DNA of 29,836 bases from a virus, in the IMG/VR virus record IMGVR_UViG_3300019880_000006, positions 1-29,836 of that record; one strand, 5' to 3'. Made by a program: the position numbers and the translations under genes. Below the pieces are notes generated by a model that was not told the origin of the DNA, ran no database searches, and saw only the letters and a list, made by a program, of their open reading frames with translations. Numbering within the stretch: the stretch's first letter is position 1; each line of letters opens with the position of its first letter. Of the stretch, positions 1,967 to 18,371 are shown in pieces.

Positions 1967-2574
1967 ACGATCTGATCGTGCAGTTTCAAGATGAAGTCAT
2001 GGAGATGCGTCTCTTGTTTTATTTACGCCACACCCTCTACTGGCTGGCGGACGGAATAATTTCGGAAGCTGGACAGCCTCTAGAGTTTTGGTATTCAACT
2101 GCGGCGATGGCGAGTTGGGCCCAGGTATCCAAGCCGACTATGAAGCGCTACCTGAGGAAGTTTGTTGAGTTAGGAATTTTCGAAGTTGTCAGCGGACCGA
2201 ACAGCGAGCACCGCGCTGTCACCTACCGATTCAACTTAGACTTATTACGCGCGCAGTTTTCGGAACGCCGATCTCCAGAAAGCAGAGAGCAGCGGATAGA
2301 AGCCAGTCTTCAAAAAGCCCGTGCGGAGGCGCGCGAAGCTTACAAAATTAAACGCGACCGCGAAAAGCGGAGAGAGCCTATAAAACTGCTAGCCGACCTG
2401 CCGCACATCCACCAGCGCATCGCCGAAGACATGACCGCCGATCAGCCGTTCCTGCTGAAATGCTCGACCTGTAAAGTCTGGCGCGGGATCACGACGGACG
2501 AGTTCGCGGCCTATCTGGCGCACGGCTGGCCTTACTGCTGCGGAAACACGATGCAACTGGAGAAGGCCGCATGA
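1963..2574 (+). CDS. Second winged-helix protein with C-terminal zinc ribbon
   Basis: 203 aa; the ATG overlaps the previous stop (ATGA) and follows a very strong GAGGAGG site. Residues about 25-92 form a winged helix: TMKRYLRKFVELGIF, then GPNS-x-x-R-x-x-T-Y. It aligns with the same segment of the preceding protein, so the two are probably paralogues. Residues about 105-138 are highly charged and likely a long helix or coiled coil. C167/C170 and C192/C193 look like a short zinc ribbon. Expected to be a sequence-specific DNA-binding protein made in step with its neighbour, perhaps as part of replication initiation. No enzymatic motif is seen. Confidence 0.6.
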   Translation: MNDLIVQFQDEVMEMRLLFYLRHTLYWLADGIISEAGQPLEFWYSTAAMASWAQVSKPTMKRYLRKFVELGIFEVVSGPNSEHRAVTYRFNLDLLRAQFSERRSPESREQRIEASLQKARAEAREAYKIKRDREKRREPIKLLADLPHIHQRIAEDMTADQPFLLKCSTCKVWRGITTDEFAAYLAHGWPYCCGNTMQLEKAA

Positions 2575-2834
2575 GCTCAATTCCCTGCCGCCAATTCGTA
2601 GCCCCCTTCGTCTGGCAGAAACTGGACGACGATCTACTTCCGGAACCGCCGAACTTCCCCATCGGGCACTTACTTGTGATCGTCGAGTGGTCCCGGATCT
2701 GCCAGATCTCCGGGAAGGAAGAGAAGTTCATAGCGGATCGCTGGTGCAAGTACGGCTTCATCGGGGAGTGCACACACTGCGGGGAGGAGCGGATCGCGCC
2801 CTTCACGCGGACCCATGCGGGAGGTGAGGGGTGA
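2571..2834 (+). CDS. Small conserved-looking protein with CxxC
   Basis: 87 aa; ATGA overlap with the gene before and GTGA overlap with the HAD gene after, so it is translationally coupled on both sides. The middle is hydrophobic (IGHLLVIVEWSRIC). Near the C-terminus it has C-K-Y-G-F-x-G-E-CTHCGEE, with three Cys that could help bind a metal. No family is recognised. It belongs to the rightward early operon. The protein-like composition and tight packing support it as a real gene. Confidence 0.6.
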   Translation: MSSIPCRQFVAPFVWQKLDDDLLPEPPNFPIGHLLVIVEWSRICQISGKEEKFIADRWCKYGFIGECTHCGEERIAPFTRTHAGGEG

Positions 2835-3220
2835 CGGATTTAACCGGACGCAAGCCGATACTGTGCCTAGATTTCGATGGCGTGTGCCATTCCTACACGA
2901 GCGGCTGGAAGGGTGCGCATGTGATTCCGGATTTGCCGGTACCGGGGATGTGGCAGTTTCTCCGCGAAGCCGTCGAAGTCTTCGAAGTCAACATCTTTTC
3001 GAGCCGCAGCCATCAAAAGGGCGGACTAAGCGCTATGCAGGCGTGGTTTATGGCGCACGCTGATGCTGTCGATCTGCCGACGGTCGATAGGCTGGTTTTC
3101 CCGCTCGAAAAACCGCCAGCACTCGTGGGGATCGACGACCGTGTAATTTGCTTTCAAGGCAGATGGCCGGAGGTGATGGCACTGCTTCGGTTCAAGCCGT
3201 GGAACGCGAAGGAAGTTTGA
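2831..3220 (+). CDS. HAD-superfamily phosphatase-like protein
   Basis: 129 aa from a GTG start overlapping the previous TGA. The N-terminal LCLDFDGVCH contains the HAD nucleophile pair D14/D16. SSRSH (57-61) sits where motif II is expected, and GIDDRVICF (100-108) supplies the motif IV acidic pair D102/D103. It is short, typical of capless phage-encoded HAD proteins with LDFDGV-H-SYTSGW. Known HAD enzymes hydrolyse phosphate esters such as nucleotides or 5'/3' ends of nucleic acids; the substrate here is unknown. It ends directly before the first copy of the duplicated stem-loop. Confidence 0.85.
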   Translation: MTDLTGRKPILCLDFDGVCHSYTSGWKGAHVIPDLPVPGMWQFLREAVEVFEVNIFSSRSHQKGGLSAMQAWFMAHADAVDLPTVDRLVFPLEKPPALVGIDDRVICFQGRWPEVMALLRFKPWNAKEV

Positions 3221-3293
3221 GTTGGGGCGGAACACTTCTGCCATCCGTGGGACCCGAAAAGTAACTGTACCGGCAGAGGTGAGCCGCCCCGAA
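3221..3293 (+). ncRNA. Intercistronic stem-loop element, copy 1
   Basis: GGGGCGG (3224-3230) and CACTTCTGCC (3233-3242) pair with GGCAGAGGTG (3272-3281) and CCGCCCC (3284-3290): a 7 bp plus 10 bp stem with a 2x2 internal loop and a 29-nt terminal loop. The element starts right after the HAD stop codon and ends about 10 nt before an AGGAGG ribosome site. A second copy lies at 4291-4363. The only difference in the paired bases (T3236 versus C4306) turns a G-C pair into a G-U wobble, so the RNA fold is kept. Could be an RNA processing site, a cis-regulatory leader, or a recombination site flanking the cassette. Confidence 0.6.
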
Positions 3294-3309
3294 ATTGCAG
3301 GAGGACCGT

Positions 3310-3456
3310 ATGCAGACAGCTACAATTCGCGCCCGTCAGAAACCGGTAGAAGAATTGCCAGCGTGGGCCGTGTGCTGCCCTGAAGCCCGCGAAGCCGCTC
3401 AGTGGAATGCGGAGAATGAAGGAACTATCGAAGTGCTCTCCGAAGTTTGGGGGTGA
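3310..3456 (+). CDS. 48-aa protein upstream of the methylase
   Basis: ATG preceded by a strong AGGAGG site (about 3300-3304). Residues are mixed and polar, with a CC pair (about 21-22) and an acidic C-terminal half (EAREAAQWNAENEGTIEV). Stop lies 3 nt before the methylase ATG, so the two are almost certainly cotranslated. It is the first gene after stem-loop copy 1. No family is recognised; a small partner of the methylase or an unrelated early protein are both possible. Confidence 0.6.
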   Translation: MQTATIRARQKPVEELPAWAVCCPEAREAAQWNAENEGTIEVLSEVWG

Positions 3457-3459
3457 GGG

Positions 3460-4320
3460 ATGAGGCCCGTACTGCGATATCACGGAGGGAAGTGGAAGTT
3501 GGCCCCTTGGCTGATTGACCATTTCCCAATGCACCGCATTTATGTAGAGCCGTTCGCCGGGGGAGCGAGTGTGCTGATGCGTAAACCGCGAAGCTATGCC
3601 GAAGTTTACAACGACCGCTGGGATGAAGTTGTCCGGGTGTTCCGCGTGCTGCGGGATCCAATTAAAGCCGCCGCCCTGGCGGAATTGCTGAGACTCACGC
3701 CATTCGCGCGCTCCGAGTTTGACGGCGCGGGTTCAGAAGCTATTGCGATTCTTCCAGAATTAGAAGCTGTTCGCCTCACGCTTTTCCGCTCATTCGCGGG
3801 CTTCGGATCAGCGGCAACCAACGCGAAATACACGACAGGCTTCAGATCTAATTCCAATCGCGCGGGAACCACGCCGGCACAAGACTGGGCGGGCTATCCC
3901 AAGTATGTCCGGGAATTCACAGCGCGATTGTCCGGCGTCGTGATCGAGAACAAGGATGCGCTCGAACTTATCTTGCAGCACGATACGCCCGAAACGTTCT
4001 TCTATGTCGATCCGCCCTACCCGCACTCCACGCGCAATATGCAGCGCGGCAACGCGGCTTACGAGTGCGAAATGTCGGACGACGATCATCGAAGACTCGC
4101 GGAATGCTTACACCATGTGCAAGGGAAAGTGCTACTGTCCGGCTATCCCTGTGAGCTCTACGACTCGGAGCTGTATCGAGGGTGGCAGCGAATCGAAATA
4201 GCCCATTTCGCAGACGGCGCGCGCCAACGAACCGAAGTCATTTGGATGAACTATGCCGGGCACAAGCAGGGCGAATTTTTTGAAGAACGAGTTGGGGCGG
4301 ACCACCTCTGCCATCCGTAG
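3460..4320 (+). CDS. dam: Dam-type DNA N6-adenine methyltransferase (D12 class)
   Basis: 286 aa. The N-terminal YHGGKWKLAPWL segment (7-18) and VEPFAGGAS (29-37) form the S-adenosylmethionine site (motif I region). FYVDPPYPHS (181-190) contains the catalytic DPPY of N6-adenine methylases. Length is normal for the D12/Dam family, whose members often methylate GATC; specificity cannot be read here. No partner restriction enzyme is visible, so an orphan phage methylase protecting DNA or timing replication or expression is likely. The last nine codons (278-286) and the stop lie inside stem-loop copy 2, suggesting that this element replaced the original 3' end. Confidence 0.93.
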   Translation: MRPVLRYHGGKWKLAPWLIDHFPMHRIYVEPFAGGASVLMRKPRSYAEVYNDRWDEVVRVFRVLRDPIKAAALAELLRLTPFARSEFDGAGSEAIAILPELEAVRLTLFRSFAGFGSAATNAKYTTGFRSNSNRAGTTPAQDWAGYPKYVREFTARLSGVVIENKDALELILQHDTPETFFYVDPPYPHSTRNMQRGNAAYECEMSDDDHRRLAECLHHVQGKVLLSGYPCELYDSELYRGWQRIEIAHFADGARQRTEVIWMNYAGHKQGEFFEERVGADHLCHP

Positions 4321-4363
4321 GGACCCGGAAAGTACTGTACCGGCAGAGGTGAGCCGCCCCGAA
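4291..4363 (+). ncRNA. Intercistronic stem-loop element, copy 2
   Basis: Same architecture as copy 1: GGGGCGG (4294-4300) and CACCTCTGCC (4303-4312) pair with GGCAGAGGTG (4342-4351) and CCGCCCC (4354-4360), loop 4313-4341. The 3' arm is identical in both copies; the loop differs by few changes, including one inserted and one deleted A that keep it at 29 nt. It overlaps the last codons of the methylase and lies about 10 nt before a GAGGAG ribosome site for the next gene. The two copies therefore bracket the 48-aa gene plus methylase. Confidence 0.6.
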
Positions 4364-4380
4364 GTTTTGAGGAGAAGAAA

Positions 4381-4611
4381 ATGCCAATACGCCGCATCAT
4401 CGAGTACCCCGAAGCAGAAGGCAAGACGGTGGCTCAGCTGACAGTTACAAACACGGACGAGTTCCGCGGGATTGAAATCGCCTTCACCGACGAGACCGCG
4501 ATGCAATTCGAGATCGGCCTTTCTATGGAAGTCGAGCCGCAGTTGATTAACTGGAAATCGGGGAACGGAAAGAAGCTCAAGCAATTCCCCAGCGTGAAAG
4601 TGGTGGCGTGA
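4381..4611 (+). CDS. Hypothetical protein, 76 aa
   Basis: ATG with GAGGAG about 8 nt upstream, directly after stem-loop copy 2. The sequence alternates polar and hydrophobic residues (AQLTVTNTDEFRGIEIAF), suggesting a small beta-rich domain, and ends in a basic stretch (KSGNGKKLKQF). Acidic overall in the first half. No family is recognised. Coupled to the next gene by a TGATG overlap. Confidence 0.6.
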   Translation: MPIRRIIEYPEAEGKTVAQLTVTNTDEFRGIEIAFTDETAMQFEIGLSMEVEPQLINWKSGNGKKLKQFPSVKVVA

Positions 4612-4835
4612 TGGGTAGGTGTTATCGCATATGGACCTATCAGGAAGGCTTGGCGGCCCTCGACGTGCTGAACCGGGCGCAGGAGTATTTGCATTCAGTT
4701 TATTCCGACAGCATGCCGCGCGAAGAAGCTCAGTTCCATTTCGATGCGCGGGCACTCCTGCTGCGCCGTCAGAGAGCGCTCCTCGATGAAATGGAACTTG
4801 AGTATGTCTACGGCTCGGCGGCGGAGGCATCCTGA
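4611..4835 (+). CDS. Hypothetical alpha-helical protein, 74 aa
   Basis: ATG at 4611 overlaps the preceding stop (TGATG); a GTG one codon earlier is the alternative start. The translation is mostly helical, Leu/Arg/Glu-rich (ARALLLRRQRALLDEMELEY), and could form a coiled coil. It ends in a TGATG overlap with the next gene. No family is recognised; its role is unknown apart from membership of the early operon. Confidence 0.55.
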   Translation: MGRCYRIWTYQEGLAALDVLNRAQEYLHSVYSDSMPREEAQFHFDARALLLRRQRALLDEMELEYVYGSAAEAS

Positions 4836-5032
4836 TGGCCGAACACTACCCCCGGAACACCGTCTGGTTCTCCGCCTGGTGCGCCAAGTGCCGGAAGGAC
4901 ACTCCGCACTCCGCCGCCGGATGTAGGAAAGGCTCCTGCCTCACCTGCCTTGCCAAACTGGACGACGCCCACGCCGCCGCGCCTAAAAAGTCCGTCAGGA
5001 GTCAGGGAGATTTGTTCCCGCCCGCCGCATGA
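4835..5032 (+). CDS. Small zinc-ribbon protein, 65 aa
   Basis: ATG in a TGATG overlap. CAKC (16-19) and C30/C35/C38 (CRKGSCLTC) make a plausible zinc-binding module in the N-terminal half; the C-terminal third is basic and low-complexity. Similar tiny Cys-pair proteins recur through this operon (488, 6575 and, on the other strand, 7700). Function unknown; nucleic-acid or protein binding is the usual role of such domains. Confidence 0.6.
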   Translation: MAEHYPRNTVWFSAWCAKCRKDTPHSAAGCRKGSCLTCLAKLDDAHAAAPKKSVRSQGDLFPPAA

Positions 5033-5265
5033 AAATCGTTCTAGCCACTATCGCGTTCTTCCTCGTGCTCGTAGGACTCTTCCTGCTCATCCCGGAGCGC
5101 TACCGCATCCCGCCCATACGGCAACAGCAGATCTTCCTCGAAGTCGTTCTAGATTCGGAGCACCCCGGCCAACTGCTCTGCAACAAGCCCAACGGGAAGC
5201 TGGTTCCCTGCACCGTCGAAGTTGGCGGAGATGGCTGGGTGGTGAAGTGGAAGGAGAAGCCGTGA
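5029..5265 (+). CDS. Small single-pass membrane or exported protein, 78 aa
   Basis: ATGA overlap with the gene before. Residues about 4-22 (VLATIAFFLVLVGLFLLIP) form one strong hydrophobic helix after a short basic N-terminus, followed by a soluble domain of about 55 residues with two Cys (about 51 and 61) that could form a disulfide outside the cytoplasm. Likely an inner-membrane-anchored protein. No superinfection-exclusion or lysis family can be assigned from sequence alone. Confidence 0.6.
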   Translation: MKIVLATIAFFLVLVGLFLLIPERYRIPPIRQQQIFLEVVLDSEHPGQLLCNKPNGKLVPCTVEVGGDGWVVKWKEKP

Positions 5266-5672
5266 GCACTCAGGATGAACGCCGACAATTTGAGAAGTGG
5301 GCGATGGAAAAATATGGCATGGCGAAATTGCTCCGGGACGACGATCAGCGAGATCGGTACGCTCACCGCGAGACTGACGAAGCATGGGAGGGTTGGCAAG
5401 CCCGCGCCGAAATAGCCGTACCAAAGCCTGAGACGTGGAAGTGTGTGCAGCGCAACTACTTCGGTGAGCACATGGTTTTCGAGGGAGAAGTGTTTAAAGG
5501 CGTAATCCCAGACAAGGAAACTGCCGACAGAATCGTGGCCGCGATGAACGCATTACAGGCGGGGCGTCCAGTCCCAGCCCCTCTCGGCTTTTGCGACAGA
5601 TTCCCCGGCACGGGTACGACGCCCCACACGAAATGCAACGATTGCCTGAACTGGCGGGAGGTGGCCGAGTGA
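5262..5672 (+). CDS. Hypothetical phage protein with WxxWQAR motif
   Basis: 136 aa from a GTG in a GTGA overlap, preceded by AAGGAG. The frame stays open far upstream, but the coupled GTG with its ribosome site is the better start. Residues about 9-47 contain FEKWAMEKYGM...TDEAWEGWQARAEI, a pattern often seen in small phage early proteins of unknown function. The C-terminal part has CDRF...KCNDC, possibly metal-binding. Role unknown. Confidence 0.6.
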   Translation: MSTQDERRQFEKWAMEKYGMAKLLRDDDQRDRYAHRETDEAWEGWQARAEIAVPKPETWKCVQRNYFGEHMVFEGEVFKGVIPDKETADRIVAAMNALQAGRPVPAPLGFCDRFPGTGTTPHTKCNDCLNWREVAE

Positions 5673-6225: not shown

Positions 6226-6578
6226 GCGCGGCTGAGATGGCGGTGGTTGTACTGGCTTGCAACTCTCCCGGATACCAGTTCGCCGTGAAAATCGACGGAC
6301 GTGGGGCGCTCTATTTGCAAGGCACTTACGAAGAAGCTGACACGCTCACAGGCAAGATGGAGACGCAACGAACGCGCCGCTGGTTTCTCTCGCCGGAGAT
6401 GACGAAGAGTGAAATCGTGCAGACCGTGTTCAAGTGCGTCCTCACAAGCATGGAACATCGCACGCGGGAACACTTTACCTATCGACTGAAAGCCGTCTTC
6501 GGCCCGCACTTCAACGTCGAGCATCTGTGGGAGCTTTGTTCTAGGTTCGAAGCTTTCGAATGGAGGGAAAAGCCATGA
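6222..6578 (+). CDS. Hypothetical protein, 118 aa
   Basis: GTG in a GTGA overlap, with GGGAGG just upstream; this start is preferred over the longer frame from 6144. It contains a beta-like N-terminal domain (VKIDGRGALYLQGTYEEADT) followed by helices with Arg/Thr/Glu and a Trp-rich end (HLWELCSRFEAFEWREKP). Ends in an ATGA overlap with the first of the three genes that share a start module. No family is recognised. Confidence 0.55.
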   Translation: MSAAEMAVVVLACNSPGYQFAVKIDGRGALYLQGTYEEADTLTGKMETQRTRRWFLSPEMTKSEIVQTVFKCVLTSMEHRTREHFTYRLKAVFGPHFNVEHLWELCSRFEAFEWREKP

Positions 6579-10327: not shown

Positions 10328-10616
10328 GGTCGAGTTCCGTCAGCGCGGCGGCCAGGGCAACTCGCGAAAAGTGGCGTCGGCAGAACTCTTGTTCCGAAGC
10401 GAGGTCGAAAACTACGGCGGGGTGATAGCAGGGCCAACCTTCCTCTTGAAACTGGCAATCCTCGAGAGCGGGCTTGGTCGGGACGTGCTGGGCAATGACT
10501 TCGGCGCGGGCTGAGATTGTGGTGACGAGTCCCAGCAGGCTATTGATTAACTGCCCGGAGAAGGGGGGCTGTGGAAATTCGAGGGATGGAGCGGTGCTAG
10601 ATTGCTTGGTAGCCAT
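10320..10616 (-). CDS. Hypothetical protein, first gene of leftward operon
   Basis: 98 aa from ATG at 10616, chosen because GGAGGGG lies 5 nt upstream; the frame is open to 10667. It has a Pro/Ser-rich N-terminus, a helix (GQLINSLLGLVTTISARAEV), then a Cys/His/Trp segment (EDCQFQEEGWPCYHP...FCRRHF) that may bind a metal. Expressed presumably from the divergent control region just upstream. Function unknown. Confidence 0.55.
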   Translation of the reverse strand: MATKQSSTAPSLEFPQPPFSGQLINSLLGLVTTISARAEVIAQHVPTKPALEDCQFQEEGWPCYHPAVVFDLASEQEFCRRHFSRVALAAALTELDRG

Positions 10617-10796
10617 TTTGGCCCCCTCCGCGGGGCTGATCTGGTTAGGCTCCGGAGGGTGACGCAATCACCATCCGGGGCCGCAGAGATAGATTCTCAC
10701 CTTGCTGGTAAGTTGTCAAGGGCTAATTTAGCGGCATTTCTTACGCCAGGCCGAATTCCCTTGCATTCCTTGCTTGTAAGGTGCTAGTGTGCCGGT
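10617..10796. promoter_or_regulatory. Divergent control region with repeated motif
   Basis: The only divergent intergenic region of the early half. On the reverse strand TTGACA (10719-10714) is followed after 17 bases by GAATCT (10696-10691), a plausible -35 with a weak -10 for the ATPase operon. A direct repeat CTTGCTKGTAAGKTG occurs at 10701-10715 and 10769-10783, and a shorter relative (CTTGCTTGCTAG) lies at 10980-10991 ahead of the next membrane-protein gene. TTGCAT (10761) and TAGTGT (10785) could form a rightward promoter with an 18-base spacer. The repeats may be operators or phage promoters. Confidence 0.4.
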
Positions 10797-12149: not shown

Positions 12150-12698
12150 ATGAAAGTCGCCCTCTACGCCCGCGTGTCGAAAGTCGGCAAGACAGTCAAG
12201 CAGGATCCCGAAGTGCAGCTCCGCGAACTGCGCGCCTGGTGCGAAACCCACAAGCACCAAATCACCCTCGAATACGTCGATCAGGGATTTTCCGGGGCTA
12301 AAGCGTCACGCCCGCAGCTTGATCGGCTCATGCGCGACGCCACCAAGGGCCTGCAGGACTTCGAAGTGATCGTCGTGTGGCGCCTGGACCGCTTCGGCCG
12401 CTCCCTGCAGCACCTGCAGAACGCGGTGGCCGTCCTCAGAGACGCGAAGGTCGGGTTCATCAGCCTGAAAGAAGGTTTTGACCTGACGACGCCGATGGGG
12501 AAAGCCTTCTTTGGCATGCTGGGCGTTTTCGCGGAATTCGAGCGCGATGTGATCGCCGAACGCGTGCGCGCCGGCATGCAGAATGCGAAGTCGAAAGGGA
12601 TCCTGCCCGGGCGCAAGATCGACGCCAAGAAGGGCCCCAGCCGCACCACCATCTGGCGCCGTAAGCGCTGCACCGGATCTGGGGCTGTATATGCGTAG
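12150..12698 (+). CDS. Small serine recombinase (resolvase/invertase type)
   Basis: 182 aa from ATG at 12150. ALYARVS (4-10) carries the nucleophile Ser10 and Arg8; VVWRLDRFGRS (75-85) and the long E-helix FAEFERDVIAERVRAG (127-142) complete a catalytic domain of normal length. The C-terminal part is abnormal: after GRKIDAKKG the sequence jumps to PSRTTIWRR, the end of the expected helix-turn-helix, so roughly 20-25 residues appear to be missing. It may therefore bind DNA poorly or through another contact. Family role: site-specific inversion, resolution or integration. Too short to be a classic large serine integrase. Confidence 0.88.
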   Translation: MKVALYARVSKVGKTVKQDPEVQLRELRAWCETHKHQITLEYVDQGFSGAKASRPQLDRLMRDATKGLQDFEVIVVWRLDRFGRSLQHLQNAVAVLRDAKVGFISLKEGFDLTTPMGKAFFGMLGVFAEFERDVIAERVRAGMQNAKSKGILPGRKIDAKKGPSRTTIWRRKRCTGSGAVYA

Positions 12699-17356: not shown

Positions 17357-17919
17357 ACCACGACTTCAAAAAGGAACCCATCTCCCGCAAGCTCCGGGAG
17401 CTCGGCTTCTCCAGCCTGAAAGACAAAGCCCTGATCGAGCAGATGGGTGTCTGCGTCCGCGACCACGCCCACTTCCGCAGCCTCATGCTGTGCGTCACCC
17501 CGGACAAGCGGACCATCGCCTATGAGGCATTGCGTTCCAGATTGACCTTCGTTCCAAGATCGTTAGATGAGTACCTGGCCGAAGGGGCCATGCTGGCCGA
17601 ACAAGCGAAACTCCCCGTCTGGGATGAGAAGAATCAGACCGTCACCGACTACGCCGACTACCACGGCGGCAAGACGCAGCTCGAAGTTTTAGCCATGCGG
17701 GCCATCAAACGCGCGGCGCAGGAAGAGAAGTGCGACAAGAATCTTATGCTGACCTGCGCGAAATGCACCGTGCAAGCCATGTTCCCGGCGCTCGACAAGC
17801 TGGCGGCCTATTCCTATGCGCGGAAGTCGGGCTGGTGGTTCGAGAAGAATGAAGACGGCAAGGAAATCGCCGTCTGCCCGGAATGCCCCGCCGCCAGAGT
17901 TGAAATGGTGCTGGCCTAG
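17353..17919 (+). CDS. Hypothetical protein with zinc-like Cys pairs, 188 aa
   Basis: ATGA overlap. Helical and mixed through the first 150 residues. Near the C-terminus CAKC (about 136-139) and CPEC (about 176-179) could form a zinc ribbon with W-W-F in between. No family is recognised. Its last 4 bases overlap the end of a reverse-strand HNH gene, and portal follows after that insertion. Confidence 0.55.
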   Translation: MNHDFKKEPISRKLRELGFSSLKDKALIEQMGVCVRDHAHFRSLMLCVTPDKRTIAYEALRSRLTFVPRSLDEYLAEGAMLAEQAKLPVWDEKNQTVTDYADYHGGKTQLEVLAMRAIKRAAQEEKCDKNLMLTCAKCTVQAMFPALDKLAAYSYARKSGWWFEKNEDGKEIAVCPECPAARVEMVLA

Positions 17920-18371
17920 ATGAGTTTGTTTCTGATTTTCGCCGCTGCCACAGCTCGGCATTTTCGACAGAACCGGGATCCGCGCCAACGATAAGTATTT
18001 CGCAGATTAAATTCATGTCCATGGATGCAATGTGTTTTCGCAACGTTACGTGCTGGCACGGTCTGCCCACGCAGGACGTTTTCGCGCCGAGTGACCGCTT
18101 CTAAGTGATCCGGATTCACACAATCACGCATACGGCAGAGATGATCCAAATCAAGATCAGCAGGAACGGGACCCTTAAACATTGCATACGCAAGCTGGTG
18201 CGCTCTCACCGGTATACGCCTACTCCCGTAATGATCGCTTCCTAGCATGATGTACCCATACCCGCCCGACATGATGCGGCCTGTCCAAAGCCAGCAGCCC
18301 GACATAGGTTCAGGGGAACACAACGCCCAAAACCTGTCGAGGATTGGCTTTGCTGTTCTGTTTCCCTGCAT
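17916..18371 (-). CDS. HNH endonuclease (homing type), reverse strand
   Basis: 151 aa. Central HNH_3-like motif DLDHLCRMRDCVNPDHLEAV with catalytic-type His/Asn, preceded by a GCWLWTG...GYGY and RAHQLAYAMF region usual in this family. A C-terminal Cys pattern (HCIHGHEF, FCRKCR) suggests a zinc finger that aids DNA binding. Placed between forward late genes and oriented against them, as free-standing homing endonucleases often are. It nicks or cuts DNA and is expected to promote its own spread. No ribosome site is obvious. Confidence 0.9.
   Translation of the reverse strand: MQGNRTAKPILDRFWALCSPEPMSGCWLWTGRIMSGGYGYIMLGSDHYGSRRIPVRAHQLAYAMFKGPVPADLDLDHLCRMRDCVNPDHLEAVTRRENVLRGQTVPARNVAKTHCIHGHEFNLRNTYRWRGSRFCRKCRAVAAAKIRNKLI

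Follow-up and report, generated by a model that had tools for sequence, protein, structure and literature searches.

The window analysed here, that is, the whole stretch of DNA, is an IMG/VR virus record of 29,836 bases (G000) from a soil-type, P22-like tailed phage. The P22-like assignment is based on its portal (PF16510), coat (PF11651), and terminase small subunit (PF03592). According to the open reading frame table, the plus-strand genes from 1963 to about 7520 overlap or abut except at two stem-loops, SL1 and SL2, which are the sole two real gaps of this overlapping early operon. The region around them contains the following features:

2831..3220, plus strand: HAD-like gene, upstream of SL1, with relatives in 28 IMG/VR loci
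3212..3221, plus strand: left outer direct repeat GAAGTTTGAG, including the stop of the HAD-like gene
3221..3293, plus strand: SL1, stem-loop copy 1, directly 3' of the TGA of the HAD-like gene
3310..3456, plus strand: 48-aa gene (p48), inside the putative module, with a helical structure model of low confidence
3460..4320, plus strand: gene (dam) for a D12-class (Dam) adenine methyltransferase of 286 aa
4291..4363, plus strand: SL2, stem-loop copy 2, contributing the last nine Dam codons as well as the TAG stop in its loop
4361..4371, plus strand: right outer direct repeat GAAGTTTTGAG, overlapping the ribosome site of the 76-aa gene
4381..4611, plus strand: 76-aa gene, 3' of SL2

The C-terminus of the HAD-like protein (..KEV stop) is conserved in a related locus, L041. 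No relatives were found for the 76-aa protein or for the protein encoded at 1963-2571, and the predicted structure of the 76-aa protein is, like that of p48, of low confidence. The dam gene has 56% GC and its composition gives no sign of foreign origin.

Self-comparison of the window revealed that positions 3219-3296 and 4289-4366 form a direct repeat (92.4% identity over 79 columns, E 1e-24), which is the top self-repeat of the window. This alignment and the predicted folds confirm the two 73-nt copies, at 3221-3293 and 4291-4363, that a first-pass annotation had recognized. Folding energies were -38.1 kcal/mol for SL1 and -43.5 kcal/mol for SL2 (z -4.62 and -5.38), with 0 shuffled sequences folding equally well. 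In both copies, helices of 9 bp and 10 bp are separated by a 2x2 internal loop, and a 29-nt loop caps the second helix; the same two loops had been described together with a stem of 17 bp, which corresponds to our 19 pairs without the U-A and U-G at the outer end. On the plus strand, 19/19 pairs form in both copies, against 17 (SL1) and 18 (SL2) on the minus strand, because U-G pairs turn into A-C mismatches there. Full pairing on the coding strand speaks for an RNA of that strand, or for a single DNA strand, rather than for a cruciform.

A stretch of 30 bases, ACTGTACCGGCAGAGGTGAGCCGCCCCGAA, is the same in SL1 and SL2. As previously described, the 3' arms are identical, and both arm substitutions sit in the 5' arm: one is a stem wobble (G-C to G-U) that keeps the pairing and is the single difference among the paired bases, and the other is an internal-loop change. 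The loops differ by one insertion, one deletion, and one substitution, with equal net length. When an equal number of changes was placed randomly, all pairs survived in 6% of trials (P about 0.06). Thus, the pairing kept between the two copies weakly suggests selection on the stem.

The copies differ in how they follow the preceding gene. The earlier claim that both begin at or over a stop stands for SL1, whose start adjoins the TGA at 3218-3220, and does not hold for SL2, where the matching register at 4288-4290 reads CGA in the Dam frame. Therefore, Dam continues for ten codons into the loop, to the TAG at 4318-4320, which is created by an A found in copy 2 only, and SL2 indeed encodes the last nine Dam codons. 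The TGA at the start of the element was presumably lost in copy 2. At the other end, the repeats stop 16-17 nt upstream of ATG 3310 and ATG 4381, each with a Shine-Dalgarno-like GGAGG/GAGGAG, so that both copies lie shortly before a good ribosome site, as anticipated; the sequence of the spacer between hairpin and start codon differs between SL1 and SL2. Coding-strand pairing and the place between stop and ribosome site make a cis-acting RNA plausible.

Further copies of the hairpin were searched for in several collections. Exact and relaxed patterns of the 3' arm and loop gave either no match in IMG/VR or three matches without a formed stem, the 3' arm pattern had no match in GTDB genomes, and blastn against phage and plasmid records returned just chance matches of 21-23 nt. 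A covariance model (R1), the check that the first-pass annotation had proposed, was run on the records of 11-12 terminase relatives and on the 28 HAD loci; it recovered the window only, plus weak chance scores, and hence no further copies. Since these searches relied on exact patterns and on a model built on two sequences, diverged homologues could escape them. No Rfam 15 family was matched at the gathering score, which, as far as Rfam 15 goes, bears out the earlier remark that the element fits no RNA class. Taken as a coding repeat, the hairpin had no protein match. An 18-nt match to the left edge of SL2 in a syntenic stretch of L008 (1089-1106) was discarded, as it lies inside an open reading frame, does not fold into a hairpin, and is no better than expected by chance (E 0.54).

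We found that GAAGTTTGAG, just before SL1, and GAAGTTTTGAG, just after SL2, form a direct repeat with 10/11 identity. In these phages, matches within one edit of this outer repeat have a frequency of 6e-5 per base, and when a random stop flank was set against a random ribosome-site flank, 8e-4 of trials reached the same score. This was a post hoc test, and four pairings were looked at; therefore, the appropriate P is about 0.003 or weaker. Joining the flanks yields TGAGGAGAAGAAAATG, in which the stop codon overlaps the ribosome site, and in the longer joined junction, GAAGTTTGAGGAGAAGAAAATG, the HAD stop, the ribosome site, and the start are packed as in the neighbouring junctions. It is plausible that the joined flanks represent the empty site before module gain. 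This prediction strengthens the earlier suggestion that the hairpins bracket p48 and dam like a cassette. No relative carrying the empty site was found, and we therefore infer the module gain from the flanks alone.

Related phages indicate that this part of the genome varies. In the terminase relative G003/L008, the neighbours at 2571 and 4835 both have homologues, which lie only about 250 bases apart, with HAD, p48, dam, and the 76-aa gene all missing; therefore, the stretch between these neighbours is variable. In addition, the 73%-identical Dam of L005 has a different C-terminus, with neither hairpin nor p48 beside it.

With a probability of about 0.42, we tentatively favour the reading that SL1 and SL2 are phage-private intercistronic boundary hairpins, which bound a gained p48-dam module and insulate or cut the message. 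The HAD-like gene and the 76-aa gene would originally have met at a tight junction, which then gained hairpin, p48, dam, and hairpin, leaving near-identical hairpins at both joins; SL1 and SL2 could later recombine with each other, so that the module is deleted or swapped. At the RNA level, each hairpin would fold on the coding strand, after a stop codon and ahead of the following ribosome site, and would most likely insulate the polycistronic message or be cut in an RNase III-type manner. The fold, in which helices of 9 and 10 bp stack on either side of a small internal loop, is similar to that of two-turn RNase III substrates, such as those of T7 early mRNA, and by this analogy RNA processing or insulation by the hairpin may be proposed. 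The private boundary hairpin is favoured by the coincidence of the only operon gaps with strong folds that pair fully on the plus strand, by the outer repeat and its joined flanks, and by the arrangements in G003/L008 and L005. Against it stand the lack of an empty-site relative, the existence of two copies only, and the modest figure for pairing retention.

A rival reading is a neutral duplication: gene shuffling would have copied a GC-rich palindromic intergenic spacer through recombination, and the hairpin itself would be without function; two copies with no match in any collection searched, and a retention of pairs compatible with chance (P 0.06), are what it has in its favour. We consider it rather unlikely, given that the fold z lies below -4.6 in SL1 and SL2, that 19/19 pairs form on the coding strand, and that most changes fall at unpaired positions. 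Moreover, compact phages tend to shed useless spacers. A translational operator, that is, a hairpin bound by a phage protein that controls the two downstream genes as has been proposed for the extended start-associated sequences (ESAS) of Cluster K mycobacteriophages, would agree with the 16-17 nt to both start codons despite a differing spacer, and with a loop conserved in length and mostly in sequence. However, the stem lies outside the ribosome site, there are two sites only as compared with 11-19 start-associated sequences (SAS) per Cluster K genome, and no start-associated motif is shared, all of which makes the operator decidedly unlikely. The direct orientation of the hairpins, the outer repeat, and Dam as cargo could instead denote a hairpin-ended mobile unit, whose transposing ends (single-strand HUH-type or a small inverted-repeat element) brought in p48-dam with a 10-11 bp target repeat. 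This is improbable, since the module contains no transposase and pattern searches of IMG/VR and GTDB found no other copy. Nor is a target repeat in keeping with HUH elements, whose known left and right ends are unlike two full, near-identical hairpins.

Readings of the hairpin as a dedicated recombination site find even less favour. A hairpin with an internal loop at the 3' end of a gene is reminiscent of gene cassettes, and the GTT at the left edge had been likened to integron cores. attC sites require AAC and GTT (PMC2727003), but SL1 and SL2 contain neither an R'' (RYYYAAC) nor an R' (GTTRRRY) box on either strand, and for attC the polarity of the 5' GTTGGGG is wrong. Among the scanned proteins, which cover part of the open reading frames of a record that may be incomplete, a serine resolvase (PF00239), and not IntI, was the sole recombinase. 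By the box test, the integron-type reading fails, and we give it practically no credence. A hairpin-based phage gene cassette system appears very improbable; here a non-attC folded site would let units of gene plus hairpin enter next to a resident hairpin, and p48-dam would be one such cassette. Altogether, SL1 and SL2 are real and well-formed copies of one hairpin, which likely borders a gene module and is, on present evidence, no new recombination site.

Several other features were noticed in the window. The small serine resolvase is encoded at 12156-12695, just ahead of the terminase genes (retained at 62% in L008), and an HNH_3 homing-type endonuclease lies at 17916-18371 on the minus strand, opposite to the gene direction and just before the portal gene. 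Three consecutive small genes, at 6573, 6869, and 7305, share their first codons (MSYSE..DG.VVLTM), and repeated gene starts are also found in relatives (MSYREENGQVVLT in G002 and G004). The top local fold of the window, with -45.6 kcal/mol, is located at 10611-10690, near a minus-strand gene start.

Related phages share a promoter-like element upstream of terminase and small genes, composed of GGGTAG(N0-2)GGACCC, 28-32 nt, and then GTAGAATATAAGAAT or variants:

G002: 32162, plus strand; 31868, minus strand; 30030, minus strand; 23807, minus strand (in L025)
G004: 14323 and 19716, plus strand
L041: 6403-6460, plus strand

The GTAGGGACCC of the hairpin loop recurs in G002 and L041, there within this element, and its distance to the HAD stop is equal in the window and in L041, a putative relation. 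The element with GTAGAATATAAGAAT is missing from the window, which its profile reaches only at E 10; therefore, it was not used for the reading of the hairpins. G002 also holds a 50-bp leader twice on opposite strands (30018-30066 and, inverted, 32123-32173), which takes in a small hairpin over the ribosome site, together with the start codon and the initial codons (MVSV..). In G000-G012, GGGACCC is rarer than base composition predicts (e.g., 0 vs 10.6 expected in G003), possibly owing to restriction-site avoidance.

Among known systems, an intrinsic terminator was rejected because no T-run is present, the stems being followed by GAAATTGCAGG and GAAGTTTTGAGG; a terminator scan, which takes loops of 3-8, lists neither hairpin. 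T7 early-region RNase III sites such as R1.1 share with SL1 and SL2 a hairpin length of about 60-75 nt, a place between early genes, and two helices on either side of an internal loop. By predicted fold, SL1 and SL2 offer the about two helix turns between genes of an RNase III site (9 + 10 bp around the 2x2 loop), but R1.1 has an asymmetric 4/5 internal loop (PMC6121014) and the 29-nt apical loop of SL1 and SL2 is long. The ESAS of Cluster K occur in the non-structural half of the genome, in many copies, as imperfect inverted repeats of 17 bp that directly precede translation starts; their spacers mostly measure 4-13 bp, and the 13-bp SAS GGGATAGGAGCCC comes after them (PMC3203893). The stems of SL1 and SL2 also lie just before translation starts, whereas they have a 29-nt loop and two copies, and GGGATAGGAGCCC is absent from 3293-3312 and 4363-4384.

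The T4-type PeSLs (Arbiol 2010; Comeau 2014), as summarized in PMC4503421 and PMC3950731, are repeated intergenic stem-loops joined to an early promoter, dense in shuffled regions and proposed to mediate module shuffling. SL1 and SL2 resemble them as a repeated intergenic stem-loop bordering a variable gene module, and differ in having two copies and no promoter-like site nearby (no sigma-70-like promoter at 2500-5300, in a scan covering the sigma-70 type). In Cluster O phages, relatives that hold one copy of a short direct repeat lack the gene that this repeat flanks elsewhere, and for Corndog gene 14, gain or loss by recombination between 17-bp direct repeats has been inferred (PMC4351075). 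By analogy, this precedent may favour the boundary-hairpin reading: here too a small gene is bracketed by a direct repeat, although the Corndog repeat has no reported hairpin and its single-copy relatives are known. As the features of attC, PeSL, ESAS, and terminators are shared in part or not at all, we file SL1 and SL2 only as a "phage intergenic boundary hairpin". By comparison, they would work like PeSLs, ESAS, and T7 R1.1 and, on present evidence, are a member of none. They would join a small set of phage boundary hairpins for which a guiding role in gene gain has been proposed, as a clean case with a predicted empty site.
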